Positions 4,047 to 18,300 of a stretch of 57,977 nt of DNA are shown one piece after another. How positions within the stretch are numbered: the stretch's first letter is position 1; each line of letters starts with the position of its first letter. A program made the position numbers and the translations under genes. The notes beneath the pieces were generated by a model that was not told the DNA's origin, made no database searches, and worked only from the letters and a program-made list of their open reading frames with translations. Source of the DNA: Pseudomonadota bacterium (GTDB taxonomy: Bacteria > Pseudomonadota > Gammaproteobacteria > Burkholderiales > Rhodocyclaceae); assembly GCA_018240585.1 (NCBI GenBank), contig JAFEFM010000484.1:1-57977 (forward strand). The letters are read 5' to 3'.

Positions 4047-5438
4047 TCAGATCACGCGGGAGTAACGCGTCCTCTCACGGTCGGCGCGCAGGTAGCGGTC
4101 GAACACCATCGCGATGCCCCGCACCAGCAGGCGGCCGGCGGGCTGCACGCTGATCCAGTCGCCTTCGACCTTCAGCAGCCCGGCTTTCTGCATCTCCGCG
4201 AGATCCTCAAGCTCCTCGGCGAAATACTCGCGGAAGTTGATCAGGTGGGCGATCTCGATCGACTGCATCGACAACTCAAAATGGCACATCAGCGCCTGGA
4301 TCACTGCGCGCCGCAGCAGGTCGTCGGCAGTGAGCTCGATGCCGCGCAGCACCGGCAGTTCGTCGCGATCGAGCGCGTCGTAGTATTCGTCCAGCGTCTT
4401 CACGTTCTGTGAATACACCGGCCCGATCTTGCCGATCGCCGACACGCCGAAAGCCAGCAGATCGCATTCGGCGTGCGTCGAATAGCCCTGGAAGTTGCGG
4501 TGCAGCCGCCCCTGCCGCTGCGCCACCGTCAGCTCGTCGTCCGGCTTGGCGAAGTGGTCCATGCCAATATAGACGTAGCCCGCCTCGGTGAGCCGACGGA
4601 TGCCGAGCTGCAGCAGTTGCAGCTTGGTGTCGGGAGTGGGCATGTCGCCCGTCGAGATACGGCGCTGCGGCTTGAACAGCCCCGGAAGGTGCGCATAACT
4701 GTAGAGGGAGACGCGATCCGGTGCGATCTGCAGCACCTGCTCCAGCGTTCGATTGAAGCTGATCACGTTCTGCTTGGGCAAGCCGTAGATCAAGTCCATG
4801 CTGACCGACTTGAAACCGGTCTGACGCGCCGAGTCGATGACGAGCTTGGTCTCGTCGTAGCTCTGGATGCGATTCACCGCCTTCTGCACGTCCTCGGCGA
4901 AGTCCTGCACGCCCACGCTCATGCGGTTGAAACCGAGGTCGGCGAGCAGCTTCACCGTGTCGAAATCGACTTTGCGCGGATCCACCTCGATCGAGTACTC
5001 GCCGTTGGGCACCAGCGTGAAATGCTCGCGCACCGCCCCCATCAACTCGCGCATTTCATCGTGCGACAGGAAGGTGGGCGTCCCCCCGCCGAGGTGCAAT
5101 TGCGTGACCTGGCGACTGCCTTCGAGGCAGGCGGACTGCATCGCGATCTCTTTCGCGAGATATTTCAGGTACTTCGCCGAGCGCCCATGATCCTTGGTGA
5201 TGATCTTGTTGCAGGCGCAGTAGTAGCAGATCGTGTTGCAGAAGGGGATGTGGAAGTATAATGAGAGCGGTTTGCTCACGCCGCCAATTGCCCGCTTCGC
5301 CAGCCATGCCTTCAAGGCGTCGGCATTGAAGGCTTCAACGAAGCGGTCGGCGGTCGGATACGACGTGTAGCGCGGGCCGTTGATGTCGAAGCGGCGAATC
5401 AGTTGCGGGTCGAAGATGAGATCGGTCTGACTGGTCAT
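4047..5438 (-). CDS. hemN: Oxygen-independent coproporphyrinogen III dehydrogenase
   Basis: The 463-residue radical SAM enzyme decarboxylates coproporphyrinogen III to protoporphyrinogen IX without oxygen. The cluster motif CNTICYYCAC (Cys67, 71, 74, plus Cys76) and the preceding HIPFC are diagnostic of HemN. The N-terminal RRFDINGPRYTSYPTADRF segment is also typical. It lies divergent from fnr, and an FNR-type box 65 nt before its ATG explains anaerobic induction. It would supply heme for cbb3 cytochromes and anaerobic respiration. Confidence 0.96.
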   Translation of the reverse strand: MTSQTDLIFDPQLIRRFDINGPRYTSYPTADRFVEAFNADALKAWLAKRAIGGVSKPLSLYFHIPFCNTICYYCACNKIITKDHGRSAKYLKYLAKEIAMQSACLEGSRQVTQLHLGGGTPTFLSHDEMRELMGAVREHFTLVPNGEYSIEVDPRKVDFDTVKLLADLGFNRMSVGVQDFAEDVQKAVNRIQSYDETKLVIDSARQTGFKSVSMDLIYGLPKQNVISFNRTLEQVLQIAPDRVSLYSYAHLPGLFKPQRRISTGDMPTPDTKLQLLQLGIRRLTEAGYVYIGMDHFAKPDDELTVAQRQGRLHRNFQGYSTHAECDLLAFGVSAIGKIGPVYSQNVKTLDEYYDALDRDELPVLRGIELTADDLLRRAVIQALMCHFELSMQSIEIAHLINFREYFAEELEDLAEMQKAGLLKVEGDWISVQPAGRLLVRGIAMVFDRYLRADRERTRYSRVI

Positions 5439-5502
5439 TGTCGTGCTGCAGGCTCTGCTGCCGGGATGTGCCTAACAATGGCAGATCACCCCGATTTTGT
5501 GG

Positions 5503-5516
5503 TTGACGTGGATCAA
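5503..5516. promoter_or_regulatory. FNR box shared by hemN and fnr
   Basis: TTGAC-GTGG-ATCAA is nearly the FNR consensus TTGAT-N4-ATCAA (one mismatch). It sits in the 131-bp divergent region, 65 nt from the hemN start and 54 nt from the fnr start. It could activate hemN and autoregulate fnr. Neither side shows a strong -10, so the direction of control is uncertain. Confidence 0.75.
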
Positions 5517-5569
5517 CGGTGTCCGGAATCTGCCGGCATCACCAATGCTGACAAGGGAAACAAGAACTC

Positions 5570-6316
5570 GTGCAGATGAAGGCGGCAGTCCCCATCACCG
5601 TCAGTGGGCTCAAGGCATCCTGCTCGCAGTGTAACCTCGTTGAGCTATGTCTGCCGTTCGGGATGTCCGAGCACGACCTCAACCGCCTCGACGAGCTTGT
5701 CGGTGCCCGCCGCAAGATCAAGCGCCAGCAGAGCCTTTACCGCGCGGGCGATCCCTTCGAGGCGATCTACGCCATCCGCGCAGGCTCCTTCAAGACCGAC
5801 GTGCTGCTCGAGGACGGTCGCGACCAGGTCACCGGCTTCCAGATGACCGGCGAGATCCTCGGCCTGGACGGCATCAGCGCGGAGACGCACTCCTGCAACG
5901 CGATCGCGCTCGAGGACAGCGAGGTCTGTGTCATTCCCTACGGCAAGCTGGAAGAGATGTCGCGCGAGGTCGAAGGCCTGCAACATCAGTTCCACAAGGT
6001 CATGAGCCGCGAGATCGTTCGCGACCACGGCGTGATGATGCTGCTCGGTTCGATGCGCGCCGAGGAGCGACTTGCGGCCTTCCTCCTCAACATGTCGCAG
6101 CGTTTCACGGCGCGCGGCTTCTCGCCGGCGGAGTTTCACCTGCGCATGACGCGTGACGAGATCGGCTCCTACCTGGGCCTGAAGCTGGAAACGGTCTCGC
6201 GCGCCTTCTCGCGCTTCCAGGAAGATGGGCTGGTGAGCGTGCAGCAGAAGCACATCCGCATCCTCAACGCGGGCGGTCTCAAGCGCCTGCTGCAGCATCA
6301 GTCCGGCGGACGTTGA
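5570..6316 (+). CDS. fnr: FNR-type oxygen-sensing transcriptional regulator
   Basis: The 248-residue CRP/FNR protein has the oxygen-labile [4Fe-4S] ligands Cys18-x2-Cys21-x5-Cys27 plus Cys109 (HSC). It has a cyclic-nucleotide-type beta barrel (about 35-150), a dimerisation helix, and a winged HTH whose recognition helix contains E-TVSR, which reads TTGAT half sites. It is the obvious activator for the FNR boxes before hemN, ccoN and perhaps uspA and the candidate sRNA. The start is GTG at 5570 or ATG at 5576; AAGGGA lies about 12 nt upstream of the GTG. Confidence 0.94.
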   Translation: MQMKAAVPITVSGLKASCSQCNLVELCLPFGMSEHDLNRLDELVGARRKIKRQQSLYRAGDPFEAIYAIRAGSFKTDVLLEDGRDQVTGFQMTGEILGLDGISAETHSCNAIALEDSEVCVIPYGKLEEMSREVEGLQHQFHKVMSREIVRDHGVMMLLGSMRAEERLAAFLLNMSQRFTARGFSPAEFHLRMTRDEIGSYLGLKLETVSRAFSRFQEDGLVSVQQKHIRILNAGGLKRLLQHQSGGR

Positions 6317-9052: not shown

Positions 9053-9096
9053 TTGACGGCCGTCAAACCGCTGATCGCGCATTCGCTGGCTATAAT
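9053..9096 (+). promoter_or_regulatory. FNR-like box and -10 of the uspA promoter
   Basis: A perfect palindrome TTGAC-GGCC-GTCAA (9053-9066) is followed 24 nt later by an exact TATAAT (9091-9096). The box centre would lie near -43.5, slightly further than the classical -41.5. The box is also 40 nt from the divergent nuclease start. uspA-type genes are classic ANR/FNR targets. Confidence 0.65.
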
Positions 9097-13710: not shown

Positions 13711-15138
13711 TCAGTGAGCGGCCGCAGGCGCGAGCACCGGCGCGTTGTAGGCTTTCTCACCCGCGATGGTCTTCACCATGTTGTAGAACATGATCAGCAT
13801 GCCGGTCAGGAACAGCACACCACCCGTCAGACGAATCGTCCAGAACGGATAGCTGGCCTTAACACTTTCGACGAAGGAGTAGGTCAGCGTGCCGTCCGCA
13901 TTGGTGGCGCGCCACATCAGGCCCTGCATCACGCCGGCAATCCACATCGAGGCGATGTACAGCACGACGCCGATGGTGGCGATCCAGAAATGCGCGTTGA
14001 TGAGCTTGACGCTGTACATCTCGGTCTTGCCGTACATGCGCGGGATCAGGAAGTAGATCGAACCGATCGACACCATCGCCACCCAGCCGAGGGCGCCCGA
14101 GTGCACGTGGCCAATGGTCCAGTCCGTGTAGTGCGACAGCGCATTGACGGTCTTCACGGACATCATCGGGCCTTCGAAGGTCGACATGCCGTAGAAGGAC
14201 AGCGAGGTGATCAGGAACTTCAGGATCGGGTCGGTGCGCAGCTTATGCCAGGCGCCGGACAGCGTCATGATGCCGTTGATCATGCCGCCCCACGAGGGCG
14301 CCAGCAGGATCAGCGAAAACACCATGCCGACGGACTGCGTCCAGTCGGGCAGCGCGGTGTAGTGCAGGTGGTGCGGACCCGCCCACATGTAAGTGAAGAT
14401 CAGCGCCCAGAAGTGCACCACGGAGAGGCGATACGAATAGACCGGACGTTCGGCCTGCTTCGGCACGAAGTAGTACATCATGCCGAGGAAGCCGGCGGTC
14501 AGGAAGAAGCCCACCGCGTTATGGCCGTACCACCACTGCACCATGGCGTCCTGCACGCCGGCGTAAGCCGAGTAGGACTTCATGCCGGTGAACGACACCG
14601 GAATCGCCGCGCTATTGACGATGTGGAGCAGCGCCACGGCGAGGATGAAGCCGCCGTAGAACCAGTTGGCAACGTATATGTGCGAGACCTTGCGCTTGGC
14701 GATGGTGCCGAAGAACACGATCGCATACGACACCCACACGACGGCGATCAGGATGTCGATCGGCCACTCGAGCTCTGCATATTCCTTGCCCTGGGTGTAG
14801 CCCAGCGGCAGCGTGATCGCAGCGAGCACGATGACGAGTTGCCAGCCCCAGAAGGTGAAGGACGCCAGGGCCGGCGCGAACAGCCGGGTGTGACAGGTAC
14901 GCTGCACGACGTAGTAGGACGTCGCGAACAACGCACAGCCACCGAAGGCGAAGATCACTGCGTTGGTATGCAGCGGACGGAGCCTGCCGAAGTGCAGGAA
15001 TTCGTGGACGTTCAGTTCGGGCCACACGAGCTGTGCTGCGGCGATGACACCGACCAGCATGCCCACTATGCCCCACACCACCGTCATGATGGCGAACTGG
15101 CGCACGACTTTATAGTTATAAGTCGCTTGCGATTGCAT
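13711..15138 (-). CDS. ccoN: cbb3-type cytochrome c oxidase catalytic subunit I
   Basis: The 475-residue heme-copper oxidase subunit has about 12 membrane helices and the conserved His ligands in contexts such as [21 protein letters not shown] and [12 protein letters not shown]. It holds the heme b/b3-CuB site that reduces oxygen with high affinity and pumps protons. The ATG at 15138 follows GAGGTGACTCAC; the frame stays open for 27 further codons upstream with no conservation. A perfect FNR box lies 107 nt upstream. Confidence 0.97.
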
Positions 15139-15218: not shown

Positions 15219-15259
15219 AGAATACCGCGGGACGGGGTCCACAATTTGATACAGATCAA
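15219..15259 (-). promoter_or_regulatory. FNR-dependent promoter of ccoNOQP
   Basis: TTGAT-ACAG-ATCAA (15246-15259) is a perfect FNR consensus box. On the minus strand, 21 nt after it lies TATTCT (15219-15224) as -10, giving a start near 15212 and a leader of about 73 nt. This is a class II FNR layout. Confidence 0.9.
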
Positions 15260-15387: not shown

Positions 15388-15417
15388 AAAAAAAAAAGGG
15401 TGCGTCTGCACGCACCC
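15388..15417 (-). terminator. Strong intrinsic terminator between ccoS and ccoN
   Basis: On the minus strand a perfect 8-bp stem (GGGTGCGT/ACGCACCC, 15398-15417) is followed by ten T (15388-15397). It ends minus-strand transcripts coming from ccoI-ccoS or from the candidate sRNA promoter, before the ccoN promoter. Confidence 0.92.
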
Positions 15418-15489
15418 CCAACCCCAACAGAGAGACAAAAGTTCCCGGCCCTGCACACTGACCACTGGCCTCGCCAGAACCGGAACCAC
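15388..15489 (-). ncRNA. Candidate FNR-activated small RNA
   Basis: No conserved reading frame is seen here. The segment is bounded by a class II FNR-like promoter (15496-15536) and the strong terminator at 15388-15417, predicting a transcript of about 100 nt. The 5' half can fold: GUUCCGG (15480-15486) pairs with CCGGGAAC (15441-15448, one bulged base), enclosing a hairpin CUGGC-GAG-GCCAG (15465-15477). A pyrimidine/G-rich linker with UUUUGUCUCUCU (around 15429-15440) stays unpaired, followed by the terminator hairpin. This is the architecture of base-pairing sRNAs such as E. coli FnrS. Transcription is inferred. Confidence 0.55.
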
Positions 15490-15495
15490 ACGCGA

Positions 15496-15536
15496 ATTAT
15501 GCCGATCCCCTCCCGACACGTATTGACCTAGGTCAA
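15496..15536 (-). promoter_or_regulatory. FNR-like promoter inside the ccoS-ccoN gap
   Basis: TTGAC-CTAG-GTCAA (15523-15536) is a perfect palindrome of the FNR/DNR type. On the minus strand, 21 nt after it lies CATAAT (15496-15501), giving a start near 15489. The box-to--10 distance is identical to that in the ccoN promoter. It lies 53 nt past the ccoS stop and about 385 nt before ccoN, so it does not suit ccoN directly. Confidence 0.6.
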
Positions 15537-15588: not shown

Positions 15589-15795
15589 TCACTCCCTGCC
15601 CTCACCACGCTGGCACGCCTCTTTTTCCGCCTTTTCCCCGGCTGAGGGAAGCTCGTCGCGATCGTCGAGCAGGAGGCGATACGCAGGTCCCTCCAGATCG
15701 TCGTACTGCCCGCTGCGCAAGGACCACCAGAACAGCACGCCGATGATGAAGACGAGGATCACGGACACCGGGATCAGCAGGTAAAGGCTTTCCAT
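15589..15795 (-). CDS. ccoS: cbb3-type oxidase assembly protein CcoS
   Basis: The 68-residue protein has one N-terminal membrane helix (about 5-26) followed by WWSLRSGQYDDLEGPAYRLLLDD, the CcoS signature. CcoS is required for insertion of heme and copper cofactors into cbb3 oxidase. It follows ccoI by 9 nt on the same strand. Confidence 0.93.
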   Translation of the reverse strand: MESLYLLIPVSVILVFIIGVLFWWSLRSGQYDDLEGPAYRLLLDDRDELPSAGEKAEKEACQRGEGRE

Positions 15796-15804
15796 GTTCT
15801 TCCT

Positions 15805-18300
15805 TCAGCGGGCGCGCTGCAGGCGCATCGCGTTGAGCACCACCAGCAATGAACTCGCGGCCATGCCGATGCCCGCCATCCAAGGCGTCACCAGGCCCGC
15901 CATGGCAAGCGGTACGGAGATGATGTTGTAGGCGAACGACCACCACAGGTTCTGGCGAATGATGCGCAGCGTCATTCGCGCCAGCCGGATCCCCCGCCCG
16001 AGACTGCCGAGGTTCTCGTTGAGCAGCACGATGTCGGCCTGATTGCGGGCCAGGTCGGTGCCGCCGCCCATGGCGATGGACACGTGGGCCTGGGCCAGCA
16101 CCGGCGCATCATTGACGCCGTCGCCTACCATCGCCACCACGGCTGCGGCGTCGTGCTGCAGATCGACGATGCGCGCCTGCTTGCCCTGCGGAGTGAGCCC
16201 TCCGTGCGCATCTCCGATCCCCAGCTCCGCCGCCACGGCATTCACCACGACGGGCGTATCGCCGGACAGCACGCTCGCGCGGATGCCGTCGGCCTTGAGC
16301 CCGGCGACGAAGGATTCGGCCTCGGCCCGCGGCAGGTCGGCCAGGCGGAACAACGCCAGCCAGCCCTCGCGCGAGCCCAGCGCCACCACCGTCCCGCCGC
16401 CCTGCTCGAAGCGCTCCAGAGACTCTGGCAGGGCCAGGCCCGCAGCGGCGGCGACGAAGCCGGGGCGGCCGATCCAGACGCTGCGTCCGTCGATCTCGCC
16501 TTCCATGCCCTGCCCCGTCTCTGCCCTCACGTCATGCACCAGGGGCAAGGCGCGCTCCCCTGCCGCTTCTCGCAGGCCCGCCGCCACCGGGTGCTCGGAG
16601 CCCTGCTCGATGGCAGCTGCCAGGGCAAGCACCTCGTCGGCCGACTGGCCGCCGAGCGGACTGGCTTCCTCCAGCTTCATGCGGCCATAGGTCAGGGTGC
16701 CGGTCTTGTCGAGCACCATGTGGTTGGTCCGCGCGAGCGTCTCGATCGCATGCCCCCGCGTCACCAGCACCCCCATGCGCGCCAGCGCGTCGGTCGCCAC
16801 CGTCAACGCCGTGGGCGTCGCCAGCGACAGCGCACAGGGGCAGGCAACGACAAGGACCGACACGAACACCCACAGCGCACGCTGAGGATCGATGAAATAC
16901 CACGCCACGCCAGTCACGCCCGCCAGCGCCAGCAAGGCAATGATGAAGAACACCGCGACCCGGTCGGCGAGCGTTGCAACCCGCGGCTTGTCGGTTGCGG
17001 CACGCTCCATCAGGCGGCGGATCGCGGCGAGCCGCGTCGCATCACCAACCTGTTCGACGCGGAAGACGAGCGGGCTCGACACGTTGATGCTGCCACCGGT
17101 CAGGATCGCGCCGACGTCCTTGGGCACTGGCCGGCTCTCGCCGGTGAGCAGCGCCTCGTTCACCTCGCCGCTGCCGGAAATCACCACGCCGTCGGCTGCC
17201 ACCGTCTCGCCCGGCCGCACCCGCAGCACGTCACCCGGCAGCAATTGCGACACCGGCACACGCTCGGCCTCGGGCGCCGGCCAGGCCGTCAGTCGCTCGG
17301 CGAAGGACGGCAGCACCTTGCCCAGTTCCTCGACTCCGCGCACCGCCTTCTGGCGCGCAATCATTTCGAGATAGCGGCCACCCAACAGGAAGAAGACGAA
17401 CATCGTGACCGAATCGAAATACACCTCCGGTCCATCGGTGAGCGTAGCCCACAGGCTGGCGAGGAAGGCGCTGCCGACCCCGAGCGCCACCGGCACATCC
17501 ATGCCGAGCCGGCGCAGCTTCACGTCGCGCCAGGCACGCTGGAAGAAAGGCGCGGCGGAATAGAGCACCACCGGCAGCGTCAACAGCAGGCTCGCCCAAC
17601 GCAGCAGCAGCTCGATATCCCAGGTCATGTCGCCCTCGCGCGCGACGTATACCGGGAAGGCGTACATCATCACCTGCATCATGCCGAAGCCGGCGACGAA
17701 CACCCGCCACAGCATCGAGCGCCGTTCCTTGTGCGCGATCTGCTCCGAACGCTCGGCATCGTAAGGGTAGGCCCGGTAGCCGATCGCCTGCACCGCAGCC
17801 AGGATGCCGGACAGATTGATGCGGCGCTCGTCCCAGCGCACGCGCGCGCGGCGCGTGGCGTAGTTGATGTGGATCGCCGACACGCCGGGCTGGCGCGCCA
17901 CATGCTGCTCGTTGAGCCACACGCACGCTGCGCAGGTGATCCCCTCCAGGATCAGCGACGCCTCGCGTTCGTGCTCGCCCACCGGGCGCACGAAAGTCTT
18001 CTGGAAATCAGGGTGATCGAACAAGCCGAGCTCCTGCAACTCGGCAGGCAGCGCCTCGCGCCGCGTCTCGGGCATCGCGTCGCGATGGCGGTAGTAGTCG
18101 ATCAGGCCGCTGTCGACGATGGATTGCGCCACGGCCTCACAGCCCACGCAGCACATGCGGCGGTCGCGGCCGTCGATGCGGACGTAGTGACGACTGTCCG
18201 GCGGGATGGGGAGCCCGCAGTGGTAGCAGTCGGCGTCCGCCGCGGTGTTGTCGAGGACGGGTGCGGCGGCTTCAGCAGGCGGCAGTTCGGCTGGGTTCAT
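15805..18300 (-). CDS. ccoI: Copper-transporting P1B ATPase for cbb3 assembly (CcoI/FixI)
   Basis: The 831-residue protein has an N-terminal Cys-rich zinc-finger-like segment (Cys25, 28, 50, 51, 54), an HMA domain with CAAC at 123-126, eight expected membrane helices, the membrane CPC motif (VVACPCALSLATPTAL), DKTGTLT and GDGVNDAP. CcoI exports Cu(I) to the periplasm for the CuB centre of CcoN and is functionally distinct from CopA. The ATG at 18300 lacks an obvious Shine-Dalgarno; a TTG codon precedes it directly. A perfect 14-bp hairpin lies 17 nt upstream. Confidence 0.95.
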   Translation of the reverse strand: MNPAELPPAEAAAPVLDNTAADADCYHCGLPIPPDSRHYVRIDGRDRRMCCVGCEAVAQSIVDSGLIDYYRHRDAMPETRREALPAELQELGLFDHPDFQKTFVRPVGEHEREASLILEGITCAACVWLNEQHVARQPGVSAIHINYATRRARVRWDERRINLSGILAAVQAIGYRAYPYDAERSEQIAHKERRSMLWRVFVAGFGMMQVMMYAFPVYVAREGDMTWDIELLLRWASLLLTLPVVLYSAAPFFQRAWRDVKLRRLGMDVPVALGVGSAFLASLWATLTDGPEVYFDSVTMFVFFLLGGRYLEMIARQKAVRGVEELGKVLPSFAERLTAWPAPEAERVPVSQLLPGDVLRVRPGETVAADGVVISGSGEVNEALLTGESRPVPKDVGAILTGGSINVSSPLVFRVEQVGDATRLAAIRRLMERAATDKPRVATLADRVAVFFIIALLALAGVTGVAWYFIDPQRALWVFVSVLVVACPCALSLATPTALTVATDALARMGVLVTRGHAIETLARTNHMVLDKTGTLTYGRMKLEEASPLGGQSADEVLALAAAIEQGSEHPVAAGLREAAGERALPLVHDVRAETGQGMEGEIDGRSVWIGRPGFVAAAAGLALPESLERFEQGGGTVVALGSREGWLALFRLADLPRAEAESFVAGLKADGIRASVLSGDTPVVVNAVAAELGIGDAHGGLTPQGKQARIVDLQHDAAAVVAMVGDGVNDAPVLAQAHVSIAMGGGTDLARNQADIVLLNENLGSLGRGIRLARMTLRIIRQNLWWSFAYNIISVPLAMAGLVTPWMAGIGMAASSLLVVLNAMRLQRAR

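Follow-up and report, generated by a model that had tools for sequence, protein, structure and literature searches.

A segment lying between ccoS and ccoN very probably encodes an FNR-activated small RNA (sRNA) that acts in trans and blocks the translation of oxygen-linked mRNAs. In the window, i.e. the whole 57,977-nt stretch of DNA analyzed here, the gene of about 102 nt was placed at positions 15388-15489 of the minus strand on the basis of its fold, its promoter and the alignment of relatives. According to the mechanism that we propose, FNR would bind a box located at about -41.5 when oxygen falls, and the RNA started in this way would, as judged from its conserved anatomy, end about 102 nt further on at its own terminator. 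A near-invariant core of 22-27 nt would pair with the ribosome-binding sites of mRNAs, in some relatives over nearly its full length, and translation of the paired mRNAs, which code for oxygen-using, peroxide-handling, Fe-S and catabolic enzymes, would presumably be blocked, Hfq probably assisting the pairing. In this way, low oxygen would induce the cbb3 oxidase and, out of one locus, silence competing oxygen-dependent functions, cytochrome bd for example. An initial annotation had proposed an oxygen-responsive sRNA at this place, a reading that the sequence comparisons support.

The promoter was located by pattern matching. A palindromic FNR box, TTGACCTAGGTCAA, is present without mismatch at 15523-15536 (minus strand), and the -10 element CATAAT follows 21 nt after it at 15501-15496 (minus strand), both as initially annotated. 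With the predicted start at 15489, the centre of the box falls near -41.5, the class II position. In the window, seven matches to the FNR-box pattern were counted with at most one mismatch; shuffled sequences gave a mean of 2.19 and none of 100 shuffles reached seven. A second, separate box, assigned to the ccoN promoter, was found by pattern match at 15246-15259 (minus strand), 3' of the sRNA terminator. By eye, a TATTCT also lies 21 nt 3' of this box, which gives the two promoters the identical spacing that had been claimed.

The neighboring genes on the minus strand are ccoN, encoding cbb3 oxidase subunit I (13714-15138, TIGR00780 over cut-off), ccoS (15592-15795, TIGR00847 over cut-off) and, in the ccoI position, a gene for a copper-type P-type ATPase (15808-18297, TIGR01511/TIGR01525 over cut-off), which we take to be CcoI. 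The presumed activator is encoded by fnr (5576-6313, plus strand), whose product scored 253.4 bits with NF008365 Fnr (cut-off 228) and contains a Crp-type helix-turn-helix. An exact FNR box at 5503-5516, between the divergent hemN and fnr genes (window positions 4047-6316), suggests that fnr may be autoregulated. Another exact FNR-type box, TTGACGGCCGTCAA, at 9053-9066, overlaps a mechanical ORF start, the product being MBL-fold-like by eye.

The predicted RNA begins with a variable 5' stem-loop domain (15440-15487, minus strand), assigned from the fold and from the covariation of a short form described below. It is followed by a 27-nt core, GTCTCTCTGTTGGGGTTGGGGGTGCGT (15410-15436, minus strand), which the alignment and the start-codon complements in relatives point to as the putative target-pairing sequence. 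In the sRNA of family genomes, the near-invariant core GUCUCUCUGUUGGGGUUGGGGGUGCG continues into the terminator stem, and the 27-nt core includes the terminator 5' arm. A hairpin search placed the Rho-independent terminator at 15419-15388 (minus strand; stem 15419-15396, T10 15397-15388). Its hairpin, GGGTGCGT-GCAG-ACGCACCC, has 8 bp, or 10 with G-U pairs, and is followed by ten T, as originally described. This T10 tail is compatible with Hfq binding, and a role of Hfq may be presumed. The fold of positions 15490-15388 has a minimum free energy (MFE) of -42.2 kcal/mol (z -2.59), and 4 of 200 shuffles were equally good. In the MFE structure, a 5' stem forms and the pyrimidine linker stays outside it, in agreement with the annotated fold, four linker bases being weakly paired with GGGG. 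That linker had been taken as the pairing seed; it keeps this place in our proposal, and the recognition sequence extends from it via GUUGGGGUUGGGG towards the terminator 5' arm. The ORFs overlapping the segment (103, 113 and 54 aa on the minus strand, 71 and 89 aa on the plus strand) are mechanical and the length of the 5' domain varies freely across relatives; the initial annotation had likewise seen no convincing gene in these roughly 100 nt. The window genome contains one clear copy of the sRNA, the next model matches having E values of 0.12 and 0.36.

The anatomy was compared across 119 loci, 108 of which were kept after removal of 7 duplicates, 2 cut loci and 2 loci without a box. In these non-redundant relatives, the box-to--10 spacing is 21 nt in 54, 22 nt in 52, 19 nt in one and 17 nt in one, as returned by a script that covered 17-26 nt and resolved near-ties towards 21/22. 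The commonest -10 elements are CATACT (42) and CATAAT (17). The fold of the 5' domain is more stable than that of dinucleotide shuffles (mean z -2.33, n=106), with 54% of the values below -2 and 82% below -1. The short form comprises 19 RNAs of 68-71 nt, the named ones coming from Dechloromonas and Azonexus. In its 7-bp 5' helix, all 7 pairs have changed on both sides and 89.5% of cells are paired; for the whole structure, the proportion is 95.1%, compared with 39.6-60.4% after sliding of the partners, and at least as many double-changed pairs were obtained in 1 of 500 letter shuffles. Covariation, together with the conservation of box, -10 element and hairpins in relatives, had been set beforehand as a check on the sRNA reading, which survived it. 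The terminator behaves differently from the drifting 5' helix: 7 of its 8 pairs never vary in the 19 short-form RNAs. Its 5' arm lay within the search pattern for most loci, and its 3' arm, outside the pattern, reads CGCACCC in all of the 106 relatives (of 108) that could be parsed; five of these have one or two extra C. Departures are seen in L171, where the terminator differs, and in L201, where the loop is longer.

When the 176-nt segment was used as a DNA query against 395 genomes of the family, 362 of them matched at E≤1. At E≤1e-3, 294 of the 395 matched, the other 68 of the 362 being weaker, and about a quarter of the family genomes are without a clear match in this search. The strong matches mostly span the linker and the terminator only. 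In the 30 best-scoring loci (best 30 of 362 matches), the 27-nt core is identical throughout, an FNR box with at most one mismatch is present in each, ccoI and ccoS lie upstream in all 30 and ccoN downstream in 28; in the other two, the contig ends first. A scan of named genomes with the core as pattern returned at least 119 stretches, and 80 loci among the matches listed were analyzed. The invariance of the core in these 80 loci is a selection effect, since the core pattern found them. Among the matches listed, they carry Rhodocyclales names or broader proteobacterial MAG labels, with one Burkholderiales (L136), and the genera represented are Thauera, Azoarcus, Aromatoleum, Zoogloea, Dechloromonas, Azonexus, Accumulibacter, Uliginosibacterium and others. 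Viral contigs scanned with the core pattern gave no match. The exact box TTGAY-N4-RTCAA is found in 76 of the 78 testable loci among the matches listed; L170 has two mismatches and L194 has no box. Likewise among the matches listed, ccoI, ccoS and ccoN surround the sRNA in 63 of the 80 loci, 7 not being classed for synteny because the retrieved stretch ends.

The element stands directly 5' of ccoN, on the same strand, in most loci, and this arrangement would also suit a cis-acting leader or attenuator in which transcription from the FNR promoter enters the oxidase operon by way of a regulated terminator. We regard such a role as very unlikely because the sRNA persists away from ccoN and away from ccoIS. 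An attenuator should always be linked to ccoN, whereas 5 of the 80 scan loci among the matches listed have no ccoN within 900 nt downstream. Within the retrieved stretch, no ccoN follows the sRNA in L149, L185 and L202, and in L146 and L195 a gene with the FNR-like cysteine motif CxxCxxxxLCLPLGL (by eye) stands between the two. Furthermore, a separate FNR box with at most one mismatch is located 3' of the terminator in 72 of the 80 loci among the matches listed, and sequences complementary to the core are found elsewhere in relatives, at start codons.

As the sRNA follows ccoS on the same strand, the terminator and the core could also just end the ccoIS transcript and yield at most a functionless processed 3' fragment. 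This appears extremely unlikely: the RNA is separated from ccoS by an FNR promoter of its own, with near-fixed spacing, and the conservation of the core exceeds what a terminator needs. In addition, 5 of the 80 scan loci among the matches listed (L128, L139, L148, L170 and L201) keep the RNA without ccoIS upstream, L170 having the two-mismatch box only.

A further point against a mere end of the ccoIS transcript comes from other families of the order, which served as a control. A search of 90 genomes of the order located ccoN in 67, and 30 loci among the matches listed were examined. Three of them belong to family members, all with the sRNA; in the 27 loci from other families (27 of 27 among the matches listed), no such core was found. 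There, ccoS was detected in 21 loci with a ccoS-ccoN gap of 65-290 nt, 700 nt being examined in the other 6, and one or more FNR boxes (at most one mismatch) are present in 25 of the 27. Terminator-like matches were restricted to L106 and L117, both without the core. From these 27 loci, the sRNA is seen as an insertion typical of the family of the window. An order-wide search with a model of the RNA tail matched 25 of 250 genomes; 17 loci were inspected, 10 of them outside the family, and L052 (genome G930) and L053 (G949) are the only two of the 10 with core, FNR box and cco synteny. Since the sRNA is also present in these two genomes, transfer or loss is possible. Matches of the tail model at the level of the class (12 of 369 genomes at E≤0.01, the window's own included) were rejected; of the 11 others, 5 were inspected and proved to be terminators of other genes or coding sequence. 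In L012 and L027, the FNR box of the sRNA promoter forms the centre of a long, perfect inverted repeat (about 48 bp and 34 bp, by eye), and in L012 this repeat gave rise to a spurious match to mir-642.

The complement of the core is CGCACCCCCAACCCCAACAGAGAGAC. Sixty genomes, picked because the DNA search suggested the long form in them, were searched with the 20-mer CCCAACCCCAACAGAGAGAC allowing at most 3 mismatches. Of 98 matches, 60 are the sRNA genes and 38 are other sites, the reversed pattern giving 13. Among these 38 non-self sites, 28 are situated 2-16 nt 5' of an ATG that opens an ORF of at least 60 aa. Nine of the 28 belong to the genus of the window, and the 28 are not fully independent, as the genomes are related.

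AGAGAGA looks like a ribosome-binding site, and it might be argued that the sRNA is real and FNR-controlled but that its start-codon complements are Shine-Dalgarno coincidences, the true targets being different. The uneven conservation of the sites in orthologues goes in this direction, as does a 15-mer search (at most 2 mismatches) in four genomes of the window's genus, where 9 non-self matches against 9 for the reversed control represent no excess; a few of them immediately precede start codons (L246, and L247 and L254, which are near-identical). Three results make this explanation quite unlikely. First, 494 patterns that keep AGAGAGAC and permute the C/A half were run on 1.2 Mb of arbitrary stretches from 20 genomes and gave 11 matches, 6 of them before a start; scaled to about 250 Mb, 4.7 and 2.5 are expected, compared with the 38 and 28 observed. 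Second, the 6-nt extension outside the search pattern also matches, at 2.84 of 6 positions versus 1.85 (0 of 20,000 draws; n=31, one contig-end site being skipped). Third, where an A of the complement is changed, it is G in 28 of 42 cases and can still pair with U (p 4e-4, with 0.40 guessed from composition), an excess to which purine-rich ribosome sites may contribute.

The longest core complement is held by the 5'UTR of a gene for a 151-aa protein in G041, where 24 of 26 complement positions are found just before the start codon and the predicted duplex reaches -48.1 kcal/mol. This protein (L315-L318) is without a Pfam family, and three orthologues found in 30 genomes have weaker, recognizable sites. 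In the window genome, the 20-mer search gave no site at up to 3 mismatches beyond the sRNA gene itself. A 12-nt match at the start of a gamma-carbonic anhydrase gene (named by eye) is a weak candidate there; as a conserved target it was rejected, the seed match occurring in two genera and the orthologues mostly keeping a GAGAGA ribosome site or less. A search for a 10-mer followed by ATG in 24 genomes gave 30 matches, 2 of which are sRNA genes, and 0 for the control, the reversed pattern being a poor control here. In the window, erpA (57221, minus strand) carries CCCCATACCCCTGCAGAGGAG 5' of its start. Its predicted duplex (-35.8) ranks second in the window target scan and best for an identified gene; with 8 mismatches to the 20-mer, this site is weak.

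Ten of the 38 sites fall outside the start-codon set. L350, L361 and L365 lie 25-37 nt from a start, and L363 is 12 nt before a rubredoxin of 57 aa, below the ORF limit of 60 aa. The others are L353, L355 and L378, just after a stop codon, L379 and L380, inside a long ORF, and L384. In L353 and L355 (genus g27) and in L378 (the window's genus), a near-complete core complement lies between the stop codon of a mutase-like gene (by eye) and a hairpin; it is possibly a 3'UTR sponge or target.

The products of the predicted target genes were identified with profile models or by eye. Over curated cut-offs were IspH (L351; L372 is the same protein by eye), a YfhL-type ferredoxin (L350), peroxiredoxin C (L360), isocitrate lyase (L361), catechol 2,3-dioxygenase (L364), a FAD-dependent oxidoreductase of the aromatic-hydroxylase kind (L365), a hotdog thioesterase (L367), an amidohydrolase (L370; L376 by eye) and DUF1428 (L381). 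The rubredoxin of L363 was over the cut-off by Pfam and not by NCBIfam. Below cut-off but clear were cytochrome bd subunit I (CydA) in L354, which is cut by the end of the stretch (L373 by eye), a glutathione-peroxidase-like protein (L349), a WrbA-like protein (L358), acyl-CoA dehydrogenase (L359; L366 by eye), enoyl-CoA hydratase (L371; L375 by eye), a TPR-like protein (L352; L377 by eye), YceI, an ABC binding protein and an enolase-superfamily protein. IspH, CydA, acyl-CoA dehydrogenase and the TPR-like protein recur across genera. Among the named products, oxygen-using, peroxide and Fe-S functions stand out; the predicted targets vary between genomes, and the thioesterase, DUF1428 and the ABC binding protein are not oxygen-linked. 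Repression of these genes would follow from the position of the complements at their ribosome-binding sites.

A more speculative extension, which we consider possible but rather doubtful, is that the long core with its terminator 5' arm, the consumption of the RNA by full pairing and the mutase-like sponge make up a one-shot, titratable oxygen switch. As the pairing with targets would include the terminator 5' arm, a target paired in full would open the terminator and use up the RNA. The use of this arm for pairing would also explain why the sequence of the terminator stem stays fixed, in contrast to the 5' hairpin, which drifts through compensatory changes. If true, a one-shot switch anchored to cbb3 would rank the terminal oxidases post-transcriptionally.

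Independently of this extension, the trans-acting sRNA that we propose would represent a testable post-transcriptional layer in the change from a metabolism based on oxygenases and bd oxidase to one that is microaerobic and denitrifying, and cydA, ispH and catechol 2,3-dioxygenase are concrete candidate targets for reporter assays. With a pairing core that stays fixed next to a hairpin that drifts and covaries, the sRNA also offers a clean natural case for the study of seed evolution.

No family of Rfam 15 matches the sRNA segment at threshold, and no description of the sRNA was found in a literature search with subscription journals mostly outside its scope; the initial annotation had likewise not recognized it as a described sRNA. 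SorY (RF02651), an alphaproteobacterial RNA with another stress role, shows a weak likeness over CUCYCUGUUGG, and membership was rejected at 21.5-29 bits against a gathering threshold of 111. The likeness to ncS16 (RF02866) consists of a hairpin, a CU-rich linker and a terminator; it scored 17 bits against 48, with no match over cut-off in 60 genomes of the order, and was rejected as well. An excerpt of the source places ncS16 in the ompA 3'UTR of Burkholderia cenocepacia (PMC5688073). For S17 of Bordetella, the excerpted text reports a 27-nt block conserved in Betaproteobacteria, Aromatoleum included, and pairing at ribosome-binding sites that is enhanced by Hfq (PMC11722255). The same excerpt locates S17 by coq7, links its expression to BvgA, notes a resemblance to RF02278 and does not mention FNR (PMC11722255). 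Compared by this partial description only, the style of conservation is similar, whereas the coq7 locus and the BvgA link of S17 differ from the cco locus and the FNR box found here. RF02278 (toxic small RNA) was itself rejected, giving no match up to E 10 in the segment or up to E 1 in 20 loci, one being that of the window and 19 those of relatives.

FnrS-like RNAs are known from enterics and from Neisseria, and FnrS represses aerobic functions by pairing near start codons. Rfam contains an FnrS family, which is absent among the Rfam matches to the sRNA segment up to E 10. In Enterobacteriaceae, according to the excerpt of the source, FnrS has an FNR class II promoter with its site at -41.5 (PMC3032703). 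On this partial account, both RNAs share the class II position of FNR and are short; they differ in their locus and in the very long C-rich complements present here in predicted targets. For AniS, or gonococcal FnrS, excerpts of two papers describe FNR control, a 5' hairpin, an unstructured linker and a terminator (PMC3032703, PMC4423775). Set against these excerpts, the segment has the same parts, FNR control being predicted from the box, and the RF02274 model aligns with it over its full length; membership in RF02274 was rejected at 20.1 bits against a gathering threshold of 50 (E 0.92). The gonococcal RNA lies opposite NGO0796 and beside bacterioferritin genes in the excerpted description (PMC3032703), whereas cco genes are found at this place here. 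The best reading of these comparisons is that the sRNA would correspond to FnrS and AniS in function, with no detectable homology to either. An apparently unrelated RNA with FnrS-like logic would thus occur in the majority of the genomes sampled from this family, whose members include denitrifiers, pollutant degraders and wastewater bacteria.
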